Source of the DNA: a virus
IMG/VR virus record: IMGVR_UViG_3300027896_000162
Coordinates: 1 to 29,012 of that record
Reading direction: 5' to 3' (one strand)
DNA length: 29,012 nucleotides
Part shown: positions 4,697 to 26,524 of the stretch, one piece after another
Layout of the letters: each line of letters starts with the position of its first letter
Position numbering within the stretch: position 1 is the first letter of the stretch
Position numbers and translations under genes: made by a program
Notes under the pieces: generated by a model
Told to the model about the DNA's origin: nothing
What the model saw: only the letters and a program-made list of their open reading frames with translations
Database searches by the model: none

Positions 4697-5308
4697 TTAT
4701 TTAATAGGACAATTTGTGGCACTATACACATATTTATTATTTGTTGTGACAATAACACCTAATGCTTTTGCTGCTACTTCAATGTCCAAAATACATTCAT
4801 CTTTTGCCCCACCAACTATGATAACTTCTTTGCCATTTAAGTCTCTGAATAAATCATATAGTTTTTTCCCTACATGATACCATTTGTGATTATTACCTAT
4901 GAAAACTATAATAGTTTCTTCTGTTGTTACGAAAAAATCTCCTCTTTTTAGATTAGCTGCTTTTGATTTTATCTCATTATAAGTTTCTGTGCTTAAAATC
5001 TTTTCGTAAAAATCCACATCTACGTCATAGTTGTATCTTTTTTCGATTAGATCTACTTGATTATTGAATCTGTACAAATCATCTTTGTTTTCTATGTTTG
5101 GATCTTCTTCGTATAAGAAGTCTTTGTCAGGATTTTTACCATCTGAGTGGTTGTCCCATATTTGAAAAACTTTATCAAATTCTTTACAATAGTTATTTAA
5201 TGCTGCCAAATATTTATCATTAAAGAATTTCTTAAATGATTTTTGCACATCACATATAATTAGAATTTTCCCTTGTGAATAATCCTCAAATAGTTTTAAA
5301 TATTTCAT
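4697..5308 (-). CDS. Isochorismatase-like hydrolase with head-targeting-like leader
   Basis: A 203-residue protein. After the leader MKYLKLFED, strand 1 reads ILIICDVQKSF (D20, Q22), the catalytic Asp region of cysteine hydrolases of the isochorismatase/nicotinamidase type. Near the end, EVIIVGGAKDECILDIEVAA places a candidate nucleophile at C172, followed by the usual LGVIVTTNNKYVYSA strand. The middle lysine of the triad is not assigned. The family hydrolyses small amides or vinyl ethers such as nicotinamide, and the substrate here is unknown. LFE|D fits the [LI]xE rule for gp21-type prohead proteases. A late box (5312-5323) directly precedes it, inside the end of the gp25-like gene. Confidence 0.65.
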   Translation of the reverse strand: MKYLKLFEDYSQGKILIICDVQKSFKKFFNDKYLAALNNYCKEFDKVFQIWDNHSDGKNPDKDFLYEEDPNIENKDDLYRFNNQVDLIEKRYNYDVDVDFYEKILSTETYNEIKSKAANLKRGDFFVTTEETIIVFIGNNHKWYHVGKKLYDLFRDLNGKEVIIVGGAKDECILDIEVAAKALGVIVTTNNKYVYSATNCPIK

Positions 5309-5717: not shown

Positions 5718-6710
5718 TTATTCTTTCCATCCAAATCCAAAAACATTACGAATTTTAGATAACACTGTTACACCTAATACTGTTGGGTCTGTATTTGTTT
5801 CTAATAATTTGGTATGATCTGTTATAATATAACAGACTTCAAATAATTTTTCAGATAAATCGGGGAAATTAGAGGAAACATATTCTATAAAAGGTCTACC
5901 TAAAAAAGAAATCATTTCATCGACCTTATCTGAACCAAAGTTATCCATTATATAGTGATAAATATCATTAAAGGTTTTATTATCACCCATTGCAATTTTA
6001 AATAGTTCTTCTCTAGCTTTTAAATCAACATTTGATGAATCATTTATTTGCCCATTTCTTCTAAAATGATCTATTGCTATTAATGTTTGCCTGAAATCTG
6101 GGAAATTTTTATTAATTATTTTTGCTAAATCTTCCTTTGTAATATCAAAACCTTCACTCGTTGCTATAACCTCTTGTACTCTTTTATAAAATAAAGTCTT
6201 TAAGGTTTTTTCTTCATTAGCATCTATACAATCAAAATTGATTACAGAAAATCTAGAAATTATTCCTTTGGAAACTTTATTAATATGATTTGTATTTAAT
6301 ATAAACCTTACATTCTTTGCTGAGTATTCCTCAATATATGCTTTTAATGCATCCTGATATTGTGCTGATGTTCTTTCGAACTCATCTAGAAATACATATT
6401 TCATAGCATCGGATTTAATATCGACTGTCATATCTAACCCCATATATACTGTGGAGCAAAATGAATCAATTTTAGATCTTAAAACGTCAATAGAAGTATA
6501 AAAAGAACTATTTAGTTCTAAATAAGGTTTATCTTTGGTATATCTACCTATTAATATTCTTGCTAGCGAAGTTTTACCTGTACCAAAATGTCCGTATAAT
6601 ATAACATTTTCTTGTAATCCATTCTCAAATATCTTTCTTATTCTTGGTAAGAGTACCATATCCTCTATTTTCCTTGGTCTAAACTTTTCTGATAATAACA
6701 ATTCTTTCAT
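5718..6710 (-). CDS. Clamp-loader large subunit (gp44-like AAA+ ATPase)
   Basis: A 330-residue AAA+ protein, close to T4 gp44 in length. Walker A is GHFGTGKT at residues 40-47, Walker B is YVFLDEFE at ~105-112, sensor 1 is FILNTN at ~137-141, and the arginine-finger SRF motif of clamp loaders is at 152-154. The N-terminal KFRPRKIEDMVL is the usual start of replication-factor-C-like subunits. It would load the sliding clamp onto primed DNA using ATP. In T4-like phages the clamp is also needed for late transcription with the gp55 sigma factor, a homolog of which is at 9631. The small subunit and the clamp are not in this window. Confidence 0.9.
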   Translation of the reverse strand: MKELLLSEKFRPRKIEDMVLLPRIRKIFENGLQENVILYGHFGTGKTSLARILIGRYTKDKPYLELNSSFYTSIDVLRSKIDSFCSTVYMGLDMTVDIKSDAMKYVFLDEFERTSAQYQDALKAYIEEYSAKNVRFILNTNHINKVSKGIISRFSVINFDCIDANEEKTLKTLFYKRVQEVIATSEGFDITKEDLAKIINKNFPDFRQTLIAIDHFRRNGQINDSSNVDLKAREELFKIAMGDNKTFNDIYHYIMDNFGSDKVDEMISFLGRPFIEYVSSNFPDLSEKLFEVCYIITDHTKLLETNTDPTVLGVTVLSKIRNVFGFGWKE

Positions 6711-8975: not shown

Positions 8976-9003
8976 AAAAAAGCCTTCATATGAAGGCTTT
9001 TTT
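8976..9003. terminator. Bidirectional terminator between convergent genes
   Basis: Perfect palindrome AAAAAAGCCTTCAT and its complement. It serves the 7678 gene and the minus-strand gene ending at 9003. Confidence 0.85.
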
Positions 9004-9560
9004 TATTTGCTGTCGTAATACTTTTTGAACACCGGAATACTTAGTAAGAAATTCATATCTAATTCTATCATTCCGATAGTATCTGAAATCATATCTTTTG
9101 TGGTGAAATAATTTTCATCCTCATCTCCAAACATTTTATCTAATTGCTCGAAGTAGAATTGCTCACATTCTTCGTCACCTTGGAATTCCCATTCCAAAAT
9201 AGTTATATCATTTAGGTTAGTCATAGGTACTACAAGAATGTCAGAAAAGACTGCTCCGTCCAATATGTCTTTTACTAAATAATTCTTATTATCCCTTGCG
9301 GCTTCTATCATGGCTGTAGGCGGATGCCTACTATTTGATAGTGTTATGTTATTAATTGTTACTTTGGCTACAAAATATTCAGAATAAAATTCGGCATTTT
9401 CTTTACTTGAGGTGAAAAAGAATCCACCGTATTTTCTACCACCTGTGCTAACTGTTCCCATCCCGTCACAATTTTTACTGAATTCTTTATAAGGTAATTT
9501 GGATACGGTTCCATGGTAATAAATATTATTTAGATTATGATATTCCTTTATGTATTTCAT
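9003..9560 (-). CDS. Putative ADP-ribosyltransferase-like protein with head-targeting-like leader
   Basis: A 185-residue protein. After the leader MKYIKEYHN come YYHGT (residues 14-18) and GGFFFTSSKENAEFYS (45-60). A Y-H-G-T strand followed by a [FY]-x-[ST]-x-S segment with a helix is the NAD-binding pattern of small H-Y-E type ADP-ribosyltransferases, where HGT binds NAD. The final catalytic Glu is not assigned. T4 carries an ADP-ribosyltransferase (Alt) inside its head, so the leader shared with other proteins here fits an injected effector. It is not shown to be active; a non-enzymatic relative of the fold is the main alternative. Confidence 0.5.
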   Translation of the reverse strand: MKYIKEYHNLNNIYYHGTVSKLPYKEFSKNCDGMGTVSTGGRKYGGFFFTSSKENAEFYSEYFVAKVTINNITLSNSRHPPTAMIEAARDNKNYLVKDILDGAVFSDILVVPMTNLNDITILEWEFQGDEECEQFYFEQLDKMFGDEDENYFTTKDMISDTIGMIELDMNFLLSIPVFKKYYDSK

Positions 9561-9630
9561 AATTTATATATAATAAACTTAATGCCAATTATATAATATA
9601 TGTTAAAGGTAATATAAAATTAATCTAAAT

Positions 9631-10002
9631 ATGAACTATTTACATAACAAAGATCTCTATATAGAAATCGTAGTAAGCAAAGCACAAGGCAAATTAACTA
9701 GAGATGCTAAATTAATGCTTGAAATTCTTGCTAAAAGAACAATTAAAAAAATGAGATATTGGTCAAATGATGATCGTATGGATTGTTATCAGTCAGGTTT
9801 ACTTGATATGTTTGATAATTGGTATAATTTCAATGAAGAAAAATCAGATGGTAATGCATTCGCATATTTTACCGAAATCTTCAAAAGAGGATTAGCTAAA
9901 GGATTTAATCAACTCTATAAAAAGAAAGGTGATGCAGATCATAAAATTAAATTAATATCATTAGAAGGCTCTAATGATGGACAGGGATTGCATTCAATAT
10001 AA
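9631..10002 (+). CDS. gp55-like late sigma factor (paralog 1)
   Basis: A 123-residue protein matching the core of the T4 gp55 family. It opens NYLHNKDLYIEIVVSKAQGK, then has DDRMDCYQSGLLDMFDNWYN with FNEEK, then AFAYFTEIFKRGLAKGFNQL. T4 gp55 has the equivalent 'NNKELL...', 'E..ADGIEASIKGLHNFDETK' and 'AYITQACFNAF' segments and replaces the host sigma at late promoters. The C-terminus (HKIKLISLEGSNDGQGLHSI) is shared with the second paralog and may be the sliding-clamp contact, as the T4 gp55 C-terminus is. The expected target is the TTTAATATATAA box seen across the window. It is shorter than T4 gp55 (185 residues). Confidence 0.75.
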   Translation: MNYLHNKDLYIEIVVSKAQGKLTRDAKLMLEILAKRTIKKMRYWSNDDRMDCYQSGLLDMFDNWYNFNEEKSDGNAFAYFTEIFKRGLAKGFNQLYKKKGDADHKIKLISLEGSNDGQGLHSI

Positions 10003-10007
10003 TAAGA

Positions 10008-10039
10008 TTTGTTTTTCTGATAAAATTTAACTATATTTG
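10008..10039 (+). promoter_or_regulatory. Perfect Bacteroidota host promoter, leaderless
   Basis: TTTG (10008-10011), a 20-base spacer and TATATTTG (10032-10039). The ATG of the next gene is at 10043, about where transcription should start, so the mRNA has no or almost no leader. Confidence 0.8.
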
Positions 10040-10042
10040 CAT

Positions 10043-10360
10043 ATGACATATTTTAATAATAAAGATTTGTGTGCCGAATTAATAATAAGCAAAGCGCAGG
10101 GTAAGTTAACCGAACAAGCAATATTGATAATAAAGATTTTATGTAAAAGAATTGTACATAGTTTGAAAATTCCTTCTAATAATGATATATCTGATTCTTA
10201 TCAGTATTGTTTATATGATGTATTCAAATATTGGCAAAAATTTGATGTAGAAACTAATAATGATGCGTTCAGTTATTTTTCTTATTTGATAAAAAGGTCT
10301 CTTACTTGGGGATATCCAGTAAAAAAGATATTAATCTTAATAAAGCCAATAAGGAATTAA
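10043..10360 (+). CDS. gp55-like sigma paralog 2, zero-frame part
   Basis: Paralog of the 9631 gene: MTYFNNKDLCAELIISKAQG, then SDSYQYCLYDVFKYWQKFDV, then AFSYFSYLIKRSLTWGY. In the zero frame it ends at 10360 with an unrelated tail after PVKK. At GTA AAA AAG (10318-10326) the heptamer A AAA AAG allows a -1 slip. The -1 frame then runs on to 10506 and restores the conserved C-terminus, giving about 154 residues. It may be a programmed frameshift like that of bacterial dnaX, a recent one-base mutation, or a base-calling error in six As. It could act as a second sigma or a gp33-like co-activator. The ATG at 10043 is chosen because the upstream TTG (10037) lies inside the promoter. Confidence 0.65.
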   Translation: MTYFNNKDLCAELIISKAQGKLTEQAILIIKILCKRIVHSLKIPSNNDISDSYQYCLYDVFKYWQKFDVETNNDAFSYFSYLIKRSLTWGYPVKKILILIKPIRN

Positions 10361-10506
10361 TTGCGGTAAATAGGGAAAGAAAATTAAATTCAATATTGGA
10401 TAATATTCAATATGTGCCGTTTTTAATAGAGGAAACTTACGAATTTAATAAACACCAAATTAAATTAATATCATTGGAAGATTCTATGGGATTACATTCA
10501 ATATAA
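10306..10506 (+). CDS. -1 frame continuation of sigma paralog 2
   Basis: Open in the -1 frame without a stop through the slippery site to 10506. From the slip it reads DINLNKANKELIAVNRERKL and so on, and ends HQIKLISLEDSMGLHSI, almost the same C-terminus as paralog 1. There is no good independent start (only TTG at 10306), so it should be read as the second half of the 10043 gene. Its intactness over some 60 codons argues that the frame is still used or was lost only recently. Confidence 0.6.
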   Translation: MGISSKKDINLNKANKELIAVNRERKLNSILDNIQYVPFLIEETYEFNKHQIKLISLEDSMGLHSI

Positions 10507-10523
10507 AAATATATGAATTTTAT

Positions 10524-10554
10524 TTTGTTTTTTCAAATAATTTTAGTATATTTG
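10524..10554 (+). promoter_or_regulatory. Perfect Bacteroidota host promoter, leaderless
   Basis: TTTG (10524-10527), 19-base spacer, TATATTTG (10547-10554). The ATG is at 10558, again with almost no room for a leader. Confidence 0.8.
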
Positions 10555-10557
10555 TTT

Positions 10558-10785
10558 ATGCAAGAATTATATCCATTACCTGGTGAAACCTATCGTCACT
10601 ATAAAGGCGGCACTTATGAAATTATAAGTATGTGCGAACACACTGAAACTAAAGAAAAATTGGTTATTTGTAAATCATTAAATTTCGGTTCAATACATGC
10701 AAGACCTTATGATTTATTTATTTCGTTGGTTACAAGAGAACCATTTCAAACTGGTGCTTCATTGAGAAAATTTACTAAAATATGA
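10558..10785 (+). CDS. DUF1653-family protein
   Basis: A 75-residue protein: PLPGETYRHYKGGTYEIISM, CEHTETKEKLVICKSLN, then ARPYDLF. The Y-R-H-[YF]-K-G-G-x-Y-E opening, the H-[ST]-E-T-x-E-x-L-V centre and the W/R-P-x-x-x-F close are those of DUF1653, a small beta-barrel family of unknown function common in bacteria and phages. The start is set at 10558 because an in-frame ATG at 10513 lies upstream of the promoter elements. It is the first gene of a five-gene operon joined by overlapping stop/start codons, ending at the terminator at 11940. Confidence 0.7.
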   Translation: MQELYPLPGETYRHYKGGTYEIISMCEHTETKEKLVICKSLNFGSIHARPYDLFISLVTREPFQTGASLRKFTKI

Positions 10786-11069
10786 AAAGAGTTTTTTTAC
10801 AATACTGGGAAGAATCTGAAAGAGGATGGGGAGTTAGACCTGACGGTTGTTCATTACACTTAACGATGGGTGAACACAAAAAATATATAGAAAAGATATA
10901 TGAATCTAGGGATTCAAGAAATATTCCAGATGAATATGATCGAACTGTTGGTGAAGTAATAGATGTTTTTGTAAAAGATGATTTATACGATGCTATCAAA
11001 GGTTCTTTGAGATTGTGGAAACATGAGCTTAATAACCTTCTAAAATTAGAAGAGATAACAATTATATGA
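10782..11069 (+). CDS. Unknown small protein of the DUF1653 operon
   Basis: A 95-residue acidic protein. The N-terminus RVFLQYWEESERGWGVRPDG followed by CSLHLT is a pattern I associate with conserved hypothetical phage and bacterial proteins ('YWEE.E.GWG.RPDG.SLH'), but no function is known to me. Its ATG overlaps the preceding stop (ATGA at 10782-10785), which implies translational coupling. Conserved Trp, Arg, Asp and His residues cluster in the first 30 positions. Confidence 0.55.
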   Translation: MKRVFLQYWEESERGWGVRPDGCSLHLTMGEHKKYIEKIYESRDSRNIPDEYDRTVGEVIDVFVKDDLYDAIKGSLRLWKHELNNLLKLEEITII

Positions 11070-11374
11070 AATACTTAGGATTATTATTTGGGTGGATGAA
11101 GTTTTACCACATAACAAAGAACACTTCACTTTATAAAAAAATAAACGTGAATATAGTTAAATATTCATGGTTCTTTTATTTACTAAAACTTATTTATCCT
11201 ATTTGGTTAATTATAGGTTTATTTACTGGTGGTATAATATATCCTATACTATTCGCTCTAACCTTAGTTAGATATTTTATTTATCCATTAATTACCGGTA
11301 AATTATATAAATATTATGAATTAGCCGAAGCTTCTGTAAGTATTTTATTATACATAATATTATTATTTGTATAA
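11066..11374 (+). CDS. Small integral membrane protein
   Basis: A 102-residue protein with two or three hydrophobic segments at about 33-50 (FFYLLKLIYPIWLIIGLFTG), 51-73 and 85-101 (VSILLYIILLFV). It starts in an ATGA overlap with the previous gene. There is no recognisable family; a minor membrane-acting early protein is plausible. A holin cannot be excluded, but the early-type promoter of this operon argues against it. Confidence 0.5.
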   Translation: MKYLGLLFGWMKFYHITKNTSLYKKINVNIVKYSWFFYLLKLIYPIWLIIGLFTGGIIYPILFALTLVRYFIYPLITGKLYKYYELAEASVSILLYIILLFV

Positions 11375-11685
11375 TGTCTGGGTGGAATATTAGGATGGAT
11401 CCAGCAAAAGCTTGGAGGCACAATGGTACAGGAATGATATATCAATTTGATCCAAATGGAGTACATATTAAAATAATTTGCAAAACTATATCCGAAAAGG
11501 AAATGTTATATCAATATTATTATAACTGTACTACCTTAAATAAAGTCTACATTGCAAATGAATGGAATGATCAATATATTATTATAGATGATGCCGGCAA
11601 ATCTGGTAAATATCCTAAGTCAATGTTTGTAACACTGGCTGAATGTAGGGAAGATAGAATAAATAAAATTTTGGATGAGTATTAA
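11374..11685 (+). CDS. Small operon protein, paralog A
   Basis: A 103-residue protein starting in a TAATG overlap. Its second half, IIIDDAGKSGKYPKSMFVTL followed by AECREDRINKILDEY, matches the next gene (NLVDDRGFRQNFPKYCFTPL, AKFREERINKILN), so the two are tandem duplicates. The layout (cysteine near the start, a 'Y.v.DD.G....[YF]P...F...' centre, 'E.R..kIL' at the end) is common among small conserved phage proteins of unknown function. Confidence 0.5.
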   Translation: MSGWNIRMDPAKAWRHNGTGMIYQFDPNGVHIKIICKTISEKEMLYQYYYNCTTLNKVYIANEWNDQYIIIDDAGKSGKYPKSMFVTLAECREDRINKILDEY

Positions 11686-11941
11686 GGTAATTTGCACATC
11701 AACCATGTTTGTTGATGATGATTTATTATTTGTTACTGGAGTATTAGATAACTATTACAGTAATGTTATAACAATTGATAAAACATATGATGCAATAGAT
11801 ATGGAGTTTCAAGATCATGTTTTTAATTCCAAACATTATAATTTAGTTGATGATAGAGGATTTAGGCAAAATTTTCCTAAATATTGTTTTACTCCGTTGG
11901 CTAAATTTCGGGAAGAACGAATAAATAAAATATTAAATTAA
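11675..11941 (+). CDS. Small operon protein, paralog B
   Basis: An 88-residue protein, diverged duplicate of the preceding gene, overlapping it by 11 bases. It begins MSIKVICTSTMF, then repeats the D-N-Y-Y-S-N / T-I-D-K-T-Y segment and the VDDRGFRQNFPKYCF...FREERINKIL end of paralog A. Its stop runs straight into the operon terminator. Function unknown. Confidence 0.5.
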   Translation: MSIKVICTSTMFVDDDLLFVTGVLDNYYSNVITIDKTYDAIDMEFQDHVFNSKHYNLVDDRGFRQNFPKYCFTPLAKFREERINKILN

Positions 11942-11970: not shown

Positions 11971-12294
11971 TTAATTGTTTTTAGCCCAATTATTCCAATC
12001 AAATGGATCAATTCCTTTCTTAAGTAAGAATTGTTTTGAATATACTATATAATTCCCCGGTATTTTTTCATCAGGAAACATATCCTTTAGATCACTTTTA
12101 CAATATTCTGCTCTGCTTTTGGCATCACAATCGCTTGAATACTCCCAACCATTTACTATTTTATTATCAGCCTTTCTTACAGCGAAAAAATTATAAGTTG
12201 GATCAACTGGGAAACTTGCAGTTTTTTCTTCTGGTTTAACCTCTTGTTCACCTTCTTGGAAAAAATATTCATTTATTTTCTTTATAAATTTCAT
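11971..12294 (-). CDS. Unknown protein with head-targeting-like leader
   Basis: A 107-residue protein starting MKFIKKINEYF, a variant of the shared leader with an INE|Y site fitting the [LI]xE protease rule. An acidic linker (QEGEQEVKPEEK) separates it from a compact domain: YNFFAVRKADNKIVNGWEYS, then SDCDAKSRAEYCKSD, then IDPFDWNNWAKNN. The domain pattern (AVRK, IVNGWEY, IDP...NW) recurs in hypothetical phage proteins but has no function known to me. The late-type box at 12312-12323 precedes it. Confidence 0.5.
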   Translation of the reverse strand: MKFIKKINEYFFQEGEQEVKPEEKTASFPVDPTYNFFAVRKADNKIVNGWEYSSDCDAKSRAEYCKSDLKDMFPDEKIPGNYIVYSKQFLLKKGIDPFDWNNWAKNN

Positions 12295-12311: not shown

Positions 12312-12323
12312 TTATATATTAAT
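12312..12323 (-). promoter_or_regulatory. Putative late promoter box ATTAATATATAA (minus)
   Basis: Minus-strand box 17 bases before the ATG at 12294, overlapping the stop of the GNAT-like gene. Confidence 0.5.
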
Positions 12324-12792
12324 TTGTAATTTTAGGTTTTCTTTCCATATTACCATTCACAATATTATCAAACCCGAATCTTAAATACCAATCTCTTAAT
12401 TGATGTGTTGTTAAACCTTTATTTTGTCCAAAAGCTTTGGGTGTTGTTGACATATAAACATTATGCTTATCTGCAATTTCGCATATTTTTCCTAAAACTA
12501 TAGAAGCTTCTCCCTTACCTCTTGCTCTTTCCGTAGTAAGAATATCATTTAGACATAGATGTCCACCAAAACAAGAAATGTCTATTACTACATTACCTAT
12601 CATGTAACTTCCCCTCATTAAAGGATGCAAAACACCTAAGCTATGAATCTCATCAATAGCTGCTTTTATATCATTATTAGAGCTTTTATGCCATTCTTCT
12701 CCAGTATCATCTATCCAATCAGGATCCTCATAATTATCATCATCATAATCGTCCTCATCAAAGTTTTCGTTAAATTTCTTTATGTATTTCAT
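12319..12792 (-). CDS. GNAT-like acetyltransferase with head-targeting-like leader
   Basis: A 157-residue protein starting MKYIKKFNENF. A very acidic stretch (DEDDYDDDNYEDPDW) follows, then a domain with LNDILTTERARGKGEASIVL (residues 81-100). The R-G-K-G-E-A acetyl-CoA loop followed by a helix, and the later LRDWYLRFGFDNI, are typical of GNAT N-acetyltransferases. The expected reaction is acetyl transfer to an amine on an unknown substrate. The start is the Met at 12792, one base after the stop of the gp4-like gene, because this begins the shared leader; an in-frame ATG at 12807 lies within that gene. Confidence 0.6.
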   Translation of the reverse strand: MKYIKKFNENFDEDDYDDDNYEDPDWIDDTGEEWHKSSNNDIKAAIDEIHSLGVLHPLMRGSYMIGNVVIDISCFGGHLCLNDILTTERARGKGEASIVLGKICEIADKHNVYMSTTPKAFGQNKGLTTHQLRDWYLRFGFDNIVNGNMERKPKITN

Positions 12793-12793
12793 A

Positions 12794-13309
12794 TTAGTTT
12801 CCCCCAAATGTTTTTTCTGTTATTATAATGAAATTATATCCTTTCATTTTACACCATTCAATGCAAAATTTCCACTTATCTAAATTTTTTGAATATTCTT
12901 TTAAGGCATATTCAAAGTTTTTTAATTGTTTAGCATTAGGTGAGGGATTTAATTTAGGTGCCTTAGTTTCCGCAAAAGGTTTTACTTCTGCTACCACTCT
13001 CGATATAGAACCATCTTCTCTTTTTAATTCGTAATAAAAATCCGGATAATAATTATGCTTTGTTAATTTCATTTCTAACAAATTATTATTCCACGCATTT
13101 TTTATATAAGGTACTTCTATAAGTTCTGTATTCCAATGTATGATACTATCGTTATTATCTAAGTATACCATTAGTTTCTGTTCTAAACCACTACGAAAAT
13201 ATAAACCACCTTGGTTATTAAGCTTAATTATCTTTTCTTTATTTTTAGGAATATATAATCCCTGTTTGTATTTAGTTGGTTTATTTGGTTGTGAATTTAA
13301 CATTCCCAT
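12794..13309 (-). CDS. gp4-like head completion protein
   Basis: A 171-residue protein. It follows T4 gp4 (gp50, head completion) in order: an early Y-x-P-K-N segment, GGLYFRSGLEQKLMVYLDNN, IIHWNTELIEVPY, then YYPDFYYEL with VVAEVKPFAET, then LDKWKFCIEWCKMKGYNFII and ITE. The E...PDF...E-V-K arrangement is that of the restriction-endonuclease-like (TnsA-type) fold. In T4 the protein is needed to complete filled heads before tail joining. It heads a minus-strand pair with the GNAT-like gene. Confidence 0.75.
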   Translation of the reverse strand: MGMLNSQPNKPTKYKQGLYIPKNKEKIIKLNNQGGLYFRSGLEQKLMVYLDNNDSIIHWNTELIEVPYIKNAWNNNLLEMKLTKHNYYPDFYYELKREDGSISRVVAEVKPFAETKAPKLNPSPNAKQLKNFEYALKEYSKNLDKWKFCIEWCKMKGYNFIIITEKTFGGN

Positions 13310-18445: not shown

Positions 18446-20590
18446 ATGAAACCAATAATGATTATTGAGAATAACAGCACTCCACTGAGTTTGTTCGAAG
18501 AATTGGTTATTAAAGAAAAGAAAGTCGTTGTAATAGGCGGTATATTCACAGAATTCGATGTTAAAAATCGTAACGAAAGAGTATATACATCTGGCAAATT
18601 CCTTCCTTGTCTAGAAGAACTAAATGATAGAATAAGTAAAATGGGTGTTTATGGTGAATTTGACCATCCAGATGTTTTTGACACATCTTTAGCCAGAGCT
18701 TCGCATCTAGTTAAGGAAGCTGTTTACAACAAGGAATTCAACAGAGTTGAAGGTAAAATTCAATTGTTATCTACGCATTGGGGTAAGGAAGCAAGGGCAT
18801 TACACGAAGATAATTGTCCTATATTCGTATCATCAAGAGCAGCAGGAGTTACCGAAAATGACGGTACTGTTACTCTAAAAAAATTATTCACTTATGACAT
18901 TGTAGCTGATCCAGGATTTTCCTCAGCAAGAATGGGATGTATAAATGAATCATTAGGTTACAAATCTAATGACAACACTAACTTTAGGATATACGAAATG
19001 TCCGATGAGTCAAAAATTAACGAACTTTTCAACATGAACAAGAACGATTTCGTTACCAAAGAGCAGATGACTGATTACTCTAACTATCTAGTTAAAGAAT
19101 TAGGAAAAACTAATAAATCTTTAACAGAAGCTCTTAAGAAAGGTAACATGGACCCTAAGAAATTAGAAAACCTTCTAGAGTATTATGAAGCATTAAACAA
19201 CACTAACGCTCAAATGGTTAAATATTTAGATTATTTGGCTGAAACAGTTCAGGTAGTTGTAAATGACAACAAAAATTTAAGAGAAGTATCAGAAAAATTG
19301 ATCGCTCACAATGACTACCTTGCGGAAAATCTTGAGAAGGCTATCAACTACACTGAATATCTTGCTGGAAGTGTTGATAAAACTATCGAATACACTGAAT
19401 ATATTGCAGAAAGCTTGGATAAAACTATTGCTTATGGTGAATATATCGCAGAACAATTAGATAAGAATATTGCTTATTCAGAATACATTGCTGAAAATCT
19501 AGATGCAACTATTGCTTATGGTGAATATATCGCAGAAAGCGTTGATAACACAATCGCTTATTCCGAGTATCTTGCTGAACATGTTGAAGGTAATATCGCT
19601 TATTCAGAGTACATTGCTGAACATTTGGATGAAAACATCGCTTATTCAGAATACATTGCAGAAAATCTAGATAAAAACATCGCCTATTCAGGTTTAATCT
19701 CTGAGAAATTAAATGGCAATAAGGTTAATGAAGAAGTTGCATCAGCAATACCAACACTTGAAGAGTGGGGATTCACTACCGAAGATGAAGTAGCTGAGGA
19801 AGAAGTTCCAGTAGCTGAAACTCCTGCTGACGAGACAACTCCAGTAGCGGAAACAGAAGAAACAACAGAAATACCAGTTGAAACTGAAATAGCTTCAATT
19901 GAAGATATTGCTGCCGAAGTTGATAACACACTTGATGCAATCACAGACATTCTTGATGCAGAAGTACCAGTTGAAGTTCCGGAATTTGTAGATACTGTTG
20001 ATGCTGCAATCGAAGCACCAGTTGAAACACCTGAATTTGTAGCTCCTACACTTGAAGCACCAGCTTTTGTTGGTGAATCTGAAACAGAATTGACTGCAAG
20101 CATTAATTTATTAATTGCTGAGGCAACTAAGCGTAAGATAGTAGAAACTAGTGACCTTCACTTCTTGAAATTCTTAAACAAATCTCAGGTTGATAGTTAT
20201 TATTCATTAACTAACGAAGAGCAAGAATTGGTTAAAATCCATATTAGTGAAAGAAGTTACTTCAATGCTAACGATGTATTAAGATTAATCCAAGAATCAT
20301 TAGCTGTTAAGAACGAAAGTTTGGAAAACAGAGTGGTTAGATTAATGCCTGATAGCGTTAAAGCAGCATGGGAGAACATGAACGAATCAGCTAAAAAATC
20401 TATATTGTCTCAAGCAAGATTAGGTTATGATTTAACTAATGAAGGTTCTATTGAGCATTTCTGGTATACTAGAAACTTAAACAAAGTAGAAACTAAGAAA
20501 TTAGTATCTCACGATTCTTTAATCCAAGAGGATAAGCTTTCTCAGAACGAGATTGACCTAATCATGGAAAGAATTAAAGGCTTAAAATAA
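18446..20590 (+). CDS. Prohead protease fused to scaffold (gp21 + gp22-like)
   Basis: A 714-residue protein. Residues ~25-175 are a gp21-type prohead serine protease: GGIFTEFDVKNRNERVYTSG, GEFDHP (H74) and PIFVSSRAAG (S129/S130), then YDIVADPGF. T4 gp21 is only about 212 residues; here the chain continues into a scaffold-like part. It has a coiled coil (~185-285), ten tandem 14-residue repeats of the form IAYSEYIAENLDKN (286-425), a Glu/Pro/Val/Thr-rich acidic stretch (~430-545) and a helical C-terminal domain. Nearly every repeat holds [IL]AE, the [LI]xE site cut by gp21-type proteases. It would build the prohead core, mature the head and digest itself. A doubled late promoter precedes it and a terminator follows. 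Confidence 0.8.
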   Translation: MKPIMIIENNSTPLSLFEELVIKEKKVVVIGGIFTEFDVKNRNERVYTSGKFLPCLEELNDRISKMGVYGEFDHPDVFDTSLARASHLVKEAVYNKEFNRVEGKIQLLSTHWGKEARALHEDNCPIFVSSRAAGVTENDGTVTLKKLFTYDIVADPGFSSARMGCINESLGYKSNDNTNFRIYEMSDESKINELFNMNKNDFVTKEQMTDYSNYLVKELGKTNKSLTEALKKGNMDPKKLENLLEYYEALNNTNAQMVKYLDYLAETVQVVVNDNKNLREVSEKLIAHNDYLAENLEKAINYTEYLAGSVDKTIEYTEYIAESLDKTIAYGEYIAEQLDKNIAYSEYIAENLDATIAYGEYIAESVDNTIAYSEYLAEHVEGNIAYSEYIAEHLDENIAYSEYIAENLDKNIAYSGLISEKLNGNKVNEEVASAIPTLEEWGFTTEDEVAEEEVPVAETPADETTPVAETEETTEIPVETEIASIEDIAAEVDNTLDAITDILDAEVPVEVPEFVDTVDAAIEAPVETPEFVAPTLEAPAFVGESETELTASINLLIAEATKRKIVETSDLHFLKFLNKSQVDSYYSLTNEEQELVKIHISERSYFNANDVLRLIQESLAVKNESLENRVVRLMPDSVKAAWENMNESAKKSILSQARLGYDLTNEGSIEHFWYTRNLNKVETKKLVSHDSLIQEDKLSQNEIDLIMERIKGLK
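19301..19720 (+). repeat. Ten in-frame 42-base repeats (14 residues each)
   Basis: Ten units, beginning at residue 286 of the protease/scaffold protein. The consensus is I-A-Y-S-E-Y-I-A-E-N-L-D-K-N, with the first two and last units most diverged. DNA copies differ at many third positions, so the array is old rather than freshly duplicated. Confidence 0.9.
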
Positions 20591-23822: not shown

Positions 23823-24488
23823 ATGAAATACCTAAAAAGATTTAATGAAGATATTGAAAGTATTTATCCTTATTTTAAGGCAGATACATTAAAGACATTA
23901 AATACCTTCAAAAAAAGGGAAAAATATTGTAATGATACGTTGAAAAGAATAAGTTCTGGATCTTCCAGAGCAGTTTATCAATTAAATGATACAATGGTTC
24001 TTAAATTGGCTAAAAATACTAAAGGGTTGGAACAAAATTGTAATGAACAAGAAGAATGGTTACAAAAACAATATGGAGCTATTTTAACTAAATTTTACTA
24101 TAAATATTATGATGAAACATTAGATGATTATATATGGATAATTTCCGAATATGCCAAAGGAATAACTAAACAAAGATTTCAGGAAATTATTGGAGTACCT
24201 TTTGATGATTATGTTCATTATATAAGTGAAAGATACTATGGTAACAGAGGCAACAGTGCCCTTGCTAAGACACATAAAAATTATTTATCACCAGAAATTA
24301 TTAAATCAATAGAGGCAGAATACGATAGAGACAATTTTATTGAAACTGTATGTGGTATTATCGCAGATAATGATTTACATGTTGGTGATTTATCCAGAAT
24401 TGGTAGTTATGGTGAAGTTATAAGAGAGGGTTATCCCACTGTAGTTATTAGAGATTATGGTGCAACTGATGGTTATTTTGAAAAATAA
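23823..24488 (+). CDS. Protein-kinase-like protein with head-targeting-like leader
   Basis: A 221-residue protein starting MKYLKRFNEDIE. Kinase-fold marks are a Gly/Ser loop (RISSGSSRAVYQL, 42-54), VLKLAKN with K61 as the candidate ATP lysine, a following Glu-rich helix, the WIISEYA hinge-like strand, NDLHVGDLS, and VVIRDYG (D211-Y-G) in the place of DFG. The family, small kinase-like proteins in phages of many hosts, has no proven substrate known to me. With the leader it may be carried in the head and injected, as some T4-type effectors are. The ATG lies three bases after an inverted repeat promoter. Confidence 0.55.
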   Translation: MKYLKRFNEDIESIYPYFKADTLKTLNTFKKREKYCNDTLKRISSGSSRAVYQLNDTMVLKLAKNTKGLEQNCNEQEEWLQKQYGAILTKFYYKYYDETLDDYIWIISEYAKGITKQRFQEIIGVPFDDYVHYISERYYGNRGNSALAKTHKNYLSPEIIKSIEAEYDRDNFIETVCGIIADNDLHVGDLSRIGSYGEVIREGYPTVVIRDYGATDGYFEK

Positions 24489-25711: not shown

Positions 25712-26203
25712 ATGAAATATATAAAAATATTTGAAAATGCGCCTGTTATAGGTAATAGTATGGTTCAATTTACTTCTAAAAACGAAAAATTAGATCAGGT
25801 TAGAAATGAAATTAATGCTATGCTATCTAGTATGTCTGATAAACAAATTGGTTATAACTACGCTACGGGTAGCAAAGGAATATATTTTACTAATGCTGCG
25901 GGTGAATTAGTAGACGAAAGTGGATATGGTTGTACTACATATAGTGAATTATTATCAAATCTAGAGTCTATATTATATACTATTAAGAATATTAATAATC
26001 CAATGGGAACAACAGAAGCTCCAATAGAAGTTTTGCCTGCTGAACAGCCTACTAATGATATAGTACCTGCTCCACAACCTCCTCAACCACAGATTCCAGA
26101 GGCAGTACCTACTGCAGGACCGGTTGCACAGGGACCGAGATTGCCTCAAGCACAAGAAGAACTTTCTGTTTCTAGTTTTGAAAGTTTCAGGAAATCACTC
26201 TAA
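25712..26203 (+). CDS. Pro/Gln-rich protein with head-targeting-like leader
   Basis: A 163-residue protein starting MKYIKIFENAP, where IFE|N fits the [LI]xE cleavage rule. A small domain (about 20-95) contains NEINAMLSSMSDKQIGYNYA and the ring-like ESGYGCTTYSELLSNLESIL. Residues ~100-150 are a Pro/Gln/Ala/Val tract. The last residues, SVSSFESFRKSL, again show an F-E-S-F pattern. The build parallels the 3404 protein: leader, small folded part, low-complexity tail. Function unknown. Confidence 0.5.
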   Translation: MKYIKIFENAPVIGNSMVQFTSKNEKLDQVRNEINAMLSSMSDKQIGYNYATGSKGIYFTNAAGELVDESGYGCTTYSELLSNLESILYTIKNINNPMGTTEAPIEVLPAEQPTNDIVPAPQPPQPQIPEAVPTAGPVAQGPRLPQAQEELSVSSFESFRKSL

Positions 26204-26524
26204 GATTTTATCTATCCTTATTTGACGAAGCCAAGGTTTGGCGGACTTTAGTAAGAAATCATATACTCTATGTTGAGAATTATTATGTGTATTTGATCTA
26301 GATGTGATAAATACTGGCTGTATATCGGTATTAAATAAATACGAATAATCTATATCAGTTACAAAAGCTCCTTTATTTACTCTATTCATGTATATTTTTT
26401 CATGGGTAGAGTAACTTATATAACCCCATTTAGGTTTTACTTTCTCTTTCTTGATTTCTTTAACCCAATTAAGTGAATAATCACCTGTTATGCCAGATAC
26501 AGTATAATTTATCTTCAATATCAT
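26195..26524 (-). CDS. Unknown protein of the 2H phosphoesterase operon
   Basis: A 109-residue basic protein, no recognised family. It is rich in Tyr, Lys and Ser and appears to be beta-rich (KINYTVSGITGDYSLNWVKE, then PKWGYISYSTHEKIYM). Its ATG overlaps the stop of the 2H phosphoesterase gene by four bases, so the two are translationally coupled and probably share the host-like promoter at 27185. Its 3' end overlaps the convergent 25712 gene by nine bases. Confidence 0.5.
   Translation of the reverse strand: MILKINYTVSGITGDYSLNWVKEIKKEKVKPKWGYISYSTHEKIYMNRVNKGAFVTDIDYSYLFNTDIQPVFITSRSNTHNNSQHRVYDFLLKSAKPWLRQIRIDKILE

Follow-up and report, generated by a model that had tools for sequence, protein, structure and literature searches.

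Frame break at an A AAA AAG site in a module-carrying late sigma factor paralog of a Mahaphage-related virus

A split sigma factor gene in tandem with an intact one

Analysis of a 29 kb IMG/VR virus record (29,012 nucleotides, the whole of which is called here the window) revealed an intact gene for a gp55-like late sigma factor (p1) and, in tandem with it, a second sigma gene (p2) whose reading frame is broken at an A AAA AAG heptamer. Beyond this site, frame -1 encodes a ~40-residue module that recurs in fragments of other phage proteins, followed by a tail like the p1 C-terminus. The reading towards which we lean is that p2 is a lineage-specific, diverged, module-carrying sigma paralog that was recently split by the loss of a single A.

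The window carries T4-like phage genes, including those for a major capsid protein of the Gp23 type and a clamp loader of the gp44 type, and its closest named relatives at the DNA level are uncultured Mahaphages of 634-642 kb, whose clade has Bacteroidetes as its predicted hosts (PMC7162821). Several capsid-derived partial ORFs per record were observed beside one intact capsid gene in W01, W02, G006, G023, G036, G051, and G052, and a ~250-aa partial ORF of this set matches capsid residues of about 487-583. In addition, window ORFs at 4697-5308, 9003-9560, 11971-12294, and 12319-12807 (all on the minus strand), 23823-24488, and 25712-26203 start with MK[YF][IL]K and continue with an F/E-rich stretch (e.g., MKYLKRFNE); presumably, these N-termini may resemble the capsid-targeting N-terminus of T4.

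The AlphaFold model of p1 had T4 gp55 (7d7c_F) as its top PDB match, with probability 1.00 and a TM of 0.72 by query length, and a Foldseek E value of just 0.011. The match of p2 to the late sigma factor family PHROG 234 was weak (E 0.012) compared with that of p1 (E 2.3e-6). The original prediction of p2 as a sigma paralog was supported by direct comparison, as its core, with homology to sigma region 2, shares 45% identity with p1 over 92 aa (E 1.5e-21). Because p2 retains just 25 of the 52 p1-invariant residues, against 43 of 52 in the most distant p1 (LR756504), it was classed as a diverged paralog and not placed among the functional late sigma factors; judged by its sequence, it is a diverged gp55-like paralog rather than a fresh copy.

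A promoter-like TTTG-N19/20-TATATTTG pattern precedes the p2 ATG by 3 nt, and a second one is located at 10524-10557, also 3 nt ahead of the ATG of the next gene. If these were promoters, they would yield near-leaderless mRNAs. The TTTG-N-TATATTTG pattern has four sites in the window against 1.97 expected by chance, so it is weak taken alone. The coordinates of all the features are collected in Table 1.

Table 1. Features of the p1-p2 region, in window coordinates.
Feature	Position	Strand	Basis
p1, intact gp55-like late sigma factor, 123 aa	9631..10002	+	PHROG 234, E 2.3e-6; Foldseek vs. PDB
p2-bearing segment, missing from all relatives	10003..10560	+	blastn of flanks; L008 sequence
Promoter-like TTTG-N20-TATATTTG before p2	10008..10039 (10042 with spacer)	+	pattern search
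p2 frame 0 ORF, sigma core followed by 10 unrelated codons, 105 aa	10043..10360	+	similarity to p1; coding score
Frame -1 open stretch, stop at 10504-10506	10264..10506	+	ORF reading; codon scores
GGGGA, Shine-Dalgarno-like, 8 nt before the heptamer	10308..10312	+	read from sequence; function doubtful in Bacteroidia
A AAA AAG heptamer, frame 0	10321..10327	+	read from sequence
Shared ~40-aa module, core AxNR[DE]RK[IL][DN]SIL then acidic stretch, frame -1	10333..10452	+	HMM built without p2, E 1.9e-14
Tail HQIKLISLEDSMGLHSI, equal to the p1 C-terminus, frame -1	10453..10506	+	codon alignment with p1

The change of frame at the heptamer

Frame 0 of p2 reads GTA (10319-10321), AAA, AAG at the site, with six As at 10321-10326, and stops at TAA 10358-10360, the 11th codon past AAG; the dnaX-type heptamer in the zero frame and the early stop behind an unrelated tail were thus just as had been predicted. 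Frame -1 is open along 10264-10503, with 59 codons past the slip point, and its C-terminal end reads IKLISLEDSMGLHSI against IKLISLEGSNDGQGLHSI in p1, the same residue being found at 15 of 18 aligned codons of the tail (stop included). Codon scores favoured frame 0 up to ~10320 and frame -1 past the heptamer and, together with the p1-like tail, they agree with the proposal that the two frames belong together and that the switch between them takes place at the A run. The accompanying claim, a -1 frame of 60 codons ending in a conserved, putatively clamp-like C-terminus, stood in part: the frame is open and its tail is p1-like, but about 40 of the 59 codons are non-sigma sequence.

A chance opening of frame -1 was ruled out by the stop statistics (off-frame stops occur at ~1 per 9 codons, and the probability of 80 open codons is 6e-5), by the coding score, and by the match to a module profile (E 1.9e-14). 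The core, module, and tail frames of p2 are clean apart from the single break.

Regarding the heptamer, no other frame 0 copy was found in the 8,530 codons of the rest of the window, and in relatives 31 copies in 93,947 codons were counted against 55 expected, an under-representation. At least 50 open frame -1 codons were present at 5 of 71 distinct in-frame A AAA AAG sites, the window's site included. By itself, the heptamer is weaker evidence than the open frame, the coding score, and the profile match. A second slippery candidate, in L011 with a 149-codon -1 opening, turned out to be a terminator stem running into p1 and was discarded as a coincidence.

A shared module in frame -1

The loop that connects the lysine run with the tail has just 4 residues in p1, whereas in p2 this interval holds ~40 (with module peptides such as LNSILDNIQYVPFLIEETYEFNK). 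A profile built from twelve copies of the module, p2 excluded, matched the frame -1 segment with the E value given above, and no other match was better than 0.36; p2 frame -1 thus belongs to the NR[DE]RKIDSIL module. Copies were found in L063, L066, L067, L070, L073, L074, L163-L165, L168, and L169, with weaker matches in L068, L069, and L170, and in no gp55 relative other than p2. When the joined p2 protein was used as a whole-record query, the linker, unaccompanied by the sigma core, was found in the L011 contig. The module recurs there in several small genes, beside and inside major capsid protein pieces, and also in a small gene after DNA polymerase with an end similar to the AYSEYI repeats that window gene 18446-20590 encodes. 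A conserved gene consisting of a capsid N-terminal fragment with the module was present in LR745206, LR756502, a 508 kb record, and further contigs; in L163, the module lies within another small gene, and L081 has the capsid N-terminal fragment without the module.

Genes of the capsid N-terminal-fragment type with the module were located at 1208-1681 in L066, 1274-1771 in L067, 936-1289 (minus strand) in L070, and 2237-2680 in L165. In L067 and L165, the genes that come next resemble, by eye, an N-terminal fragment of a tail sheath protein and a GIY-YIG gene, and L067 additionally has a portal-like fragment. In L063 (5237-6302, minus strand) and L164 (2020-2707), capsid middle or N-terminal fragments with the module are found directly 3' of a sliding-clamp-like gene, and the stop and start codons of the L063 module genes overlap. 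A further copy in L063 (about 6290-6470, minus strand) has decayed via in-frame stops. In addition, an R..RI[DN]KIL end like the module core was observed on unrelated small window ORFs (11374-11685, 11675-11941, and 26195-26524, the last on the minus strand), as well as in L066 (2590-2817), L068, L069, L006, and L008, possibly representing a shared C-terminal tag.

The module is conserved as protein: the window and one L063 copy share 17 residues but 8 codons. As codons for conserved residues have turned over, selection has acted on the module protein and, given this conservation and the profile match, frame -1 was translated for most of its history and until recently. An RNA or palindromic DNA element was discarded on the same synonymous turnover and on fold z values of +0.45 to -2.94, mostly near 0; no Rfam family was found in window 9500-11400. 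Searches of Pfam, PHROGs, and NCBIfam gave no family above chance for the module, and no copy was found in bacterial genomes. The structure model of a capsid fragment plus module was of low confidence (pLDDT 56), its sole feature being a helix over the module core.

The p1 family and the search for other p2 genes

The A run at the p2 break corresponds to a lysine run common to the p1 family, for which 85 distinct p1 ORFs were compared. In 84 of them, the tail is reached in one frame (in 39 codons in 81 and in 40 in 3), and the remaining one is at a contig end. The run is A6 in 25 of the 85 and A8 in two of them (L035 and L057), and these last two have A AAA AAG in frame 0 within an intact gene, the -1 frame closing after 1-3 codons. 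Since deleting one A in a lysine run before G yields both the same heptamer and the break, the heptamer cannot discriminate mutation from recoding.

No p2 was found beside p1 in 57 p1 relatives from IMG/VR. Scans of IMG/VR, of public phages, and of 74 whole related records likewise gave p1 only and no p2 ortholog. The whole-record searches (49 + 25 records) gave at most one sigma core per record, and a scan with a p2-derived profile returned nothing but p1 genes among its best 80 matches. Weak second matches (G051:147068, G055:107479, and G057:68562) were checked and are not sigma genes. As far as sequence searches reach, p2 is unique to the window's record within these data, and the distance from p1 to the next shared sequence is 78 bp in L008 against about 568 bp in the window. 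A recent p1-p2 gene conversion of the tail was also considered from the identical codons (12 of 15 in the tail vs. 25 of 41 in the core), which were not decisive.

Origin of the break

If a paralog that was intact until recently lost one base in its lysine run, all these data are accounted for by known processes. In this sequence of events, p2 would have arisen as a fast-diverging, lineage-specific paralog of the phage's own gp55-like late sigma factor, in which the module replaced the loop ahead of the C-terminal tail. The gene would have stayed open in one frame until recently, when one A was lost from the lysine-coding run at the module edge and p2 was split. Its main product would now be the sigma core ending in a short stretch of unrelated residues, and rare unprogrammed slippage, which we take to be negligible, may leave traces of the full-length protein. 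In line with this, one module copy in L063 has decayed by in-frame stops, and genes split between frames that occur singly, outside any conserved cluster, result in most cases from indels or errors (PMC3711429). What counts against an indel is that the heptamer is a standard bacterial slippery sequence, under-represented in the genes of these phages, that GGGGA lies at dnaX-like spacing, and that there is no damage beyond the break; moreover, without a p2 ortholog, a recent loss is inseparable from a new regulatory use.

These same observations are what speaks for functional -1 frameshifting at A AAA AAG, which would make a sigma core with a short tail plus a core-module-tail fusion, and which we consider unlikely. 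The heptamer is of the X XXY YYZ type, its phase and direction are correct, and the frame -1 that it would open holds the conserved module and the tail; the GGGGA, absent from the original prediction, adds to this. Nevertheless, slippage as a programmed event was not supported, as no stimulator, no p2 ortholog showing conservation, and no sign of selection on the heptamer were found. The lack of a strong downstream stem, already pointed out in the prediction, was corroborated (fold z -0.03 and +0.87), and the GGGGA is unlikely to aid slippage because Bacteroidia ribosomes hide the anti-Shine-Dalgarno and make no use of Shine-Dalgarno sequences (PMC9976891). Without a stimulator, A AAA AAG slips at ~0.3% in E. 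coli (PMC4066793). In addition, the identical heptamer occurs within intact p1 genes and arises equally from a one-base loss, and a conserved split was not found in relatives. Regarding the suggestion that two forms would set the amount of active factor, T4 gp55 lacking its clamp motif is still able to drive basal transcription (PMC7892883), in line with it, but the part joined by a slip in p2 would be mainly the module known from capsid-gene fragments and not a sigma C-terminus.

It is similarly improbable that the break is a base-call or assembly error and that p2 is in one frame in the true genome, even if it falls within a homopolymer of a metagenome contig and errors are a frequent cause of singleton frameshifts that have database support (PMC3711429). 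No second frame-split ORF was apparent in the window's ORF list. Short-read platforms usually read short A6/A7 runs well, which would also argue against an error if such a platform was used. Two separate overlapping genes, the core ending at 10360 and the module-tail being started by coupling at TTG 10306 or another non-ATG codon, seem highly improbable to us: such a TTG exists in the -1 ORF and module genes overlap stop-to-ATG in L063, but no ATG occurs in frame -1 either ahead of the module or inside it, and both the tail and the flank of the module align with an otherwise continuous p1-like protein into which the module is inserted.

Under the favoured one-base loss, p2 would be an example of a decaying paralog in a phage from a metagenome; if frameshifting were proven, it would be an uncommon instance of recoding within a transcription factor of a phage. 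The module weighs more than the break, as it recurs inside capsid, sigma, and other protein fragments of the largest known phages, and its role, once known, could explain the many partial virion-gene copies kept in these genomes. It might mark decoy or interfering copies of core proteins. A more far-reaching scenario, which we regard as quite doubtful, is that huge Bacteroidota phages tag partial or altered core-protein copies (capsid, scaffold-like, late sigma) with this transferable helical module, perhaps as decoys or for interference, and that in the window's phage slippage sets the share of the sigma copy gaining module and tail.

Comparison with known systems

As in T4 gp55, the core of p1 and p2 has a sigma region-2-like helical fold, with the C-terminal tail on a linker. 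Unlike T4 gp55, both proteins are shorter and their tail, conserved among p1 relatives, has no T4-type clamp motif recognisable by eye, and in p2 the linker holds the module and the frame is broken. With dnaX, p2 shares the heptamer, its phase, and a G-rich stretch at a similar upstream distance, but it has no downstream stem, no ortholog showing conservation, and a host group without Shine-Dalgarno use; furthermore, the dnaX slip truncates the product, whereas a slip in p2 would extend it. The gp23 fragment genes of Mahaphages resemble p2 in the module core (NR[DE].KIDSI) and in its placement at a loop between conserved blocks, although there the host of the module is an N-terminal, middle, or C-terminal piece of the capsid protein, and the frames are intact in L066, L067, L070, L073, L074, L164, and L165. 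Finally, Rickettsia palindromic elements are short in-frame coding inserts that recur in unrelated genes; the p2 module differs from them in having no consistent palindrome and a similarity at the protein rather than the DNA level, but it is, like them, a short protein-coding insert recurring across unrelated genes.
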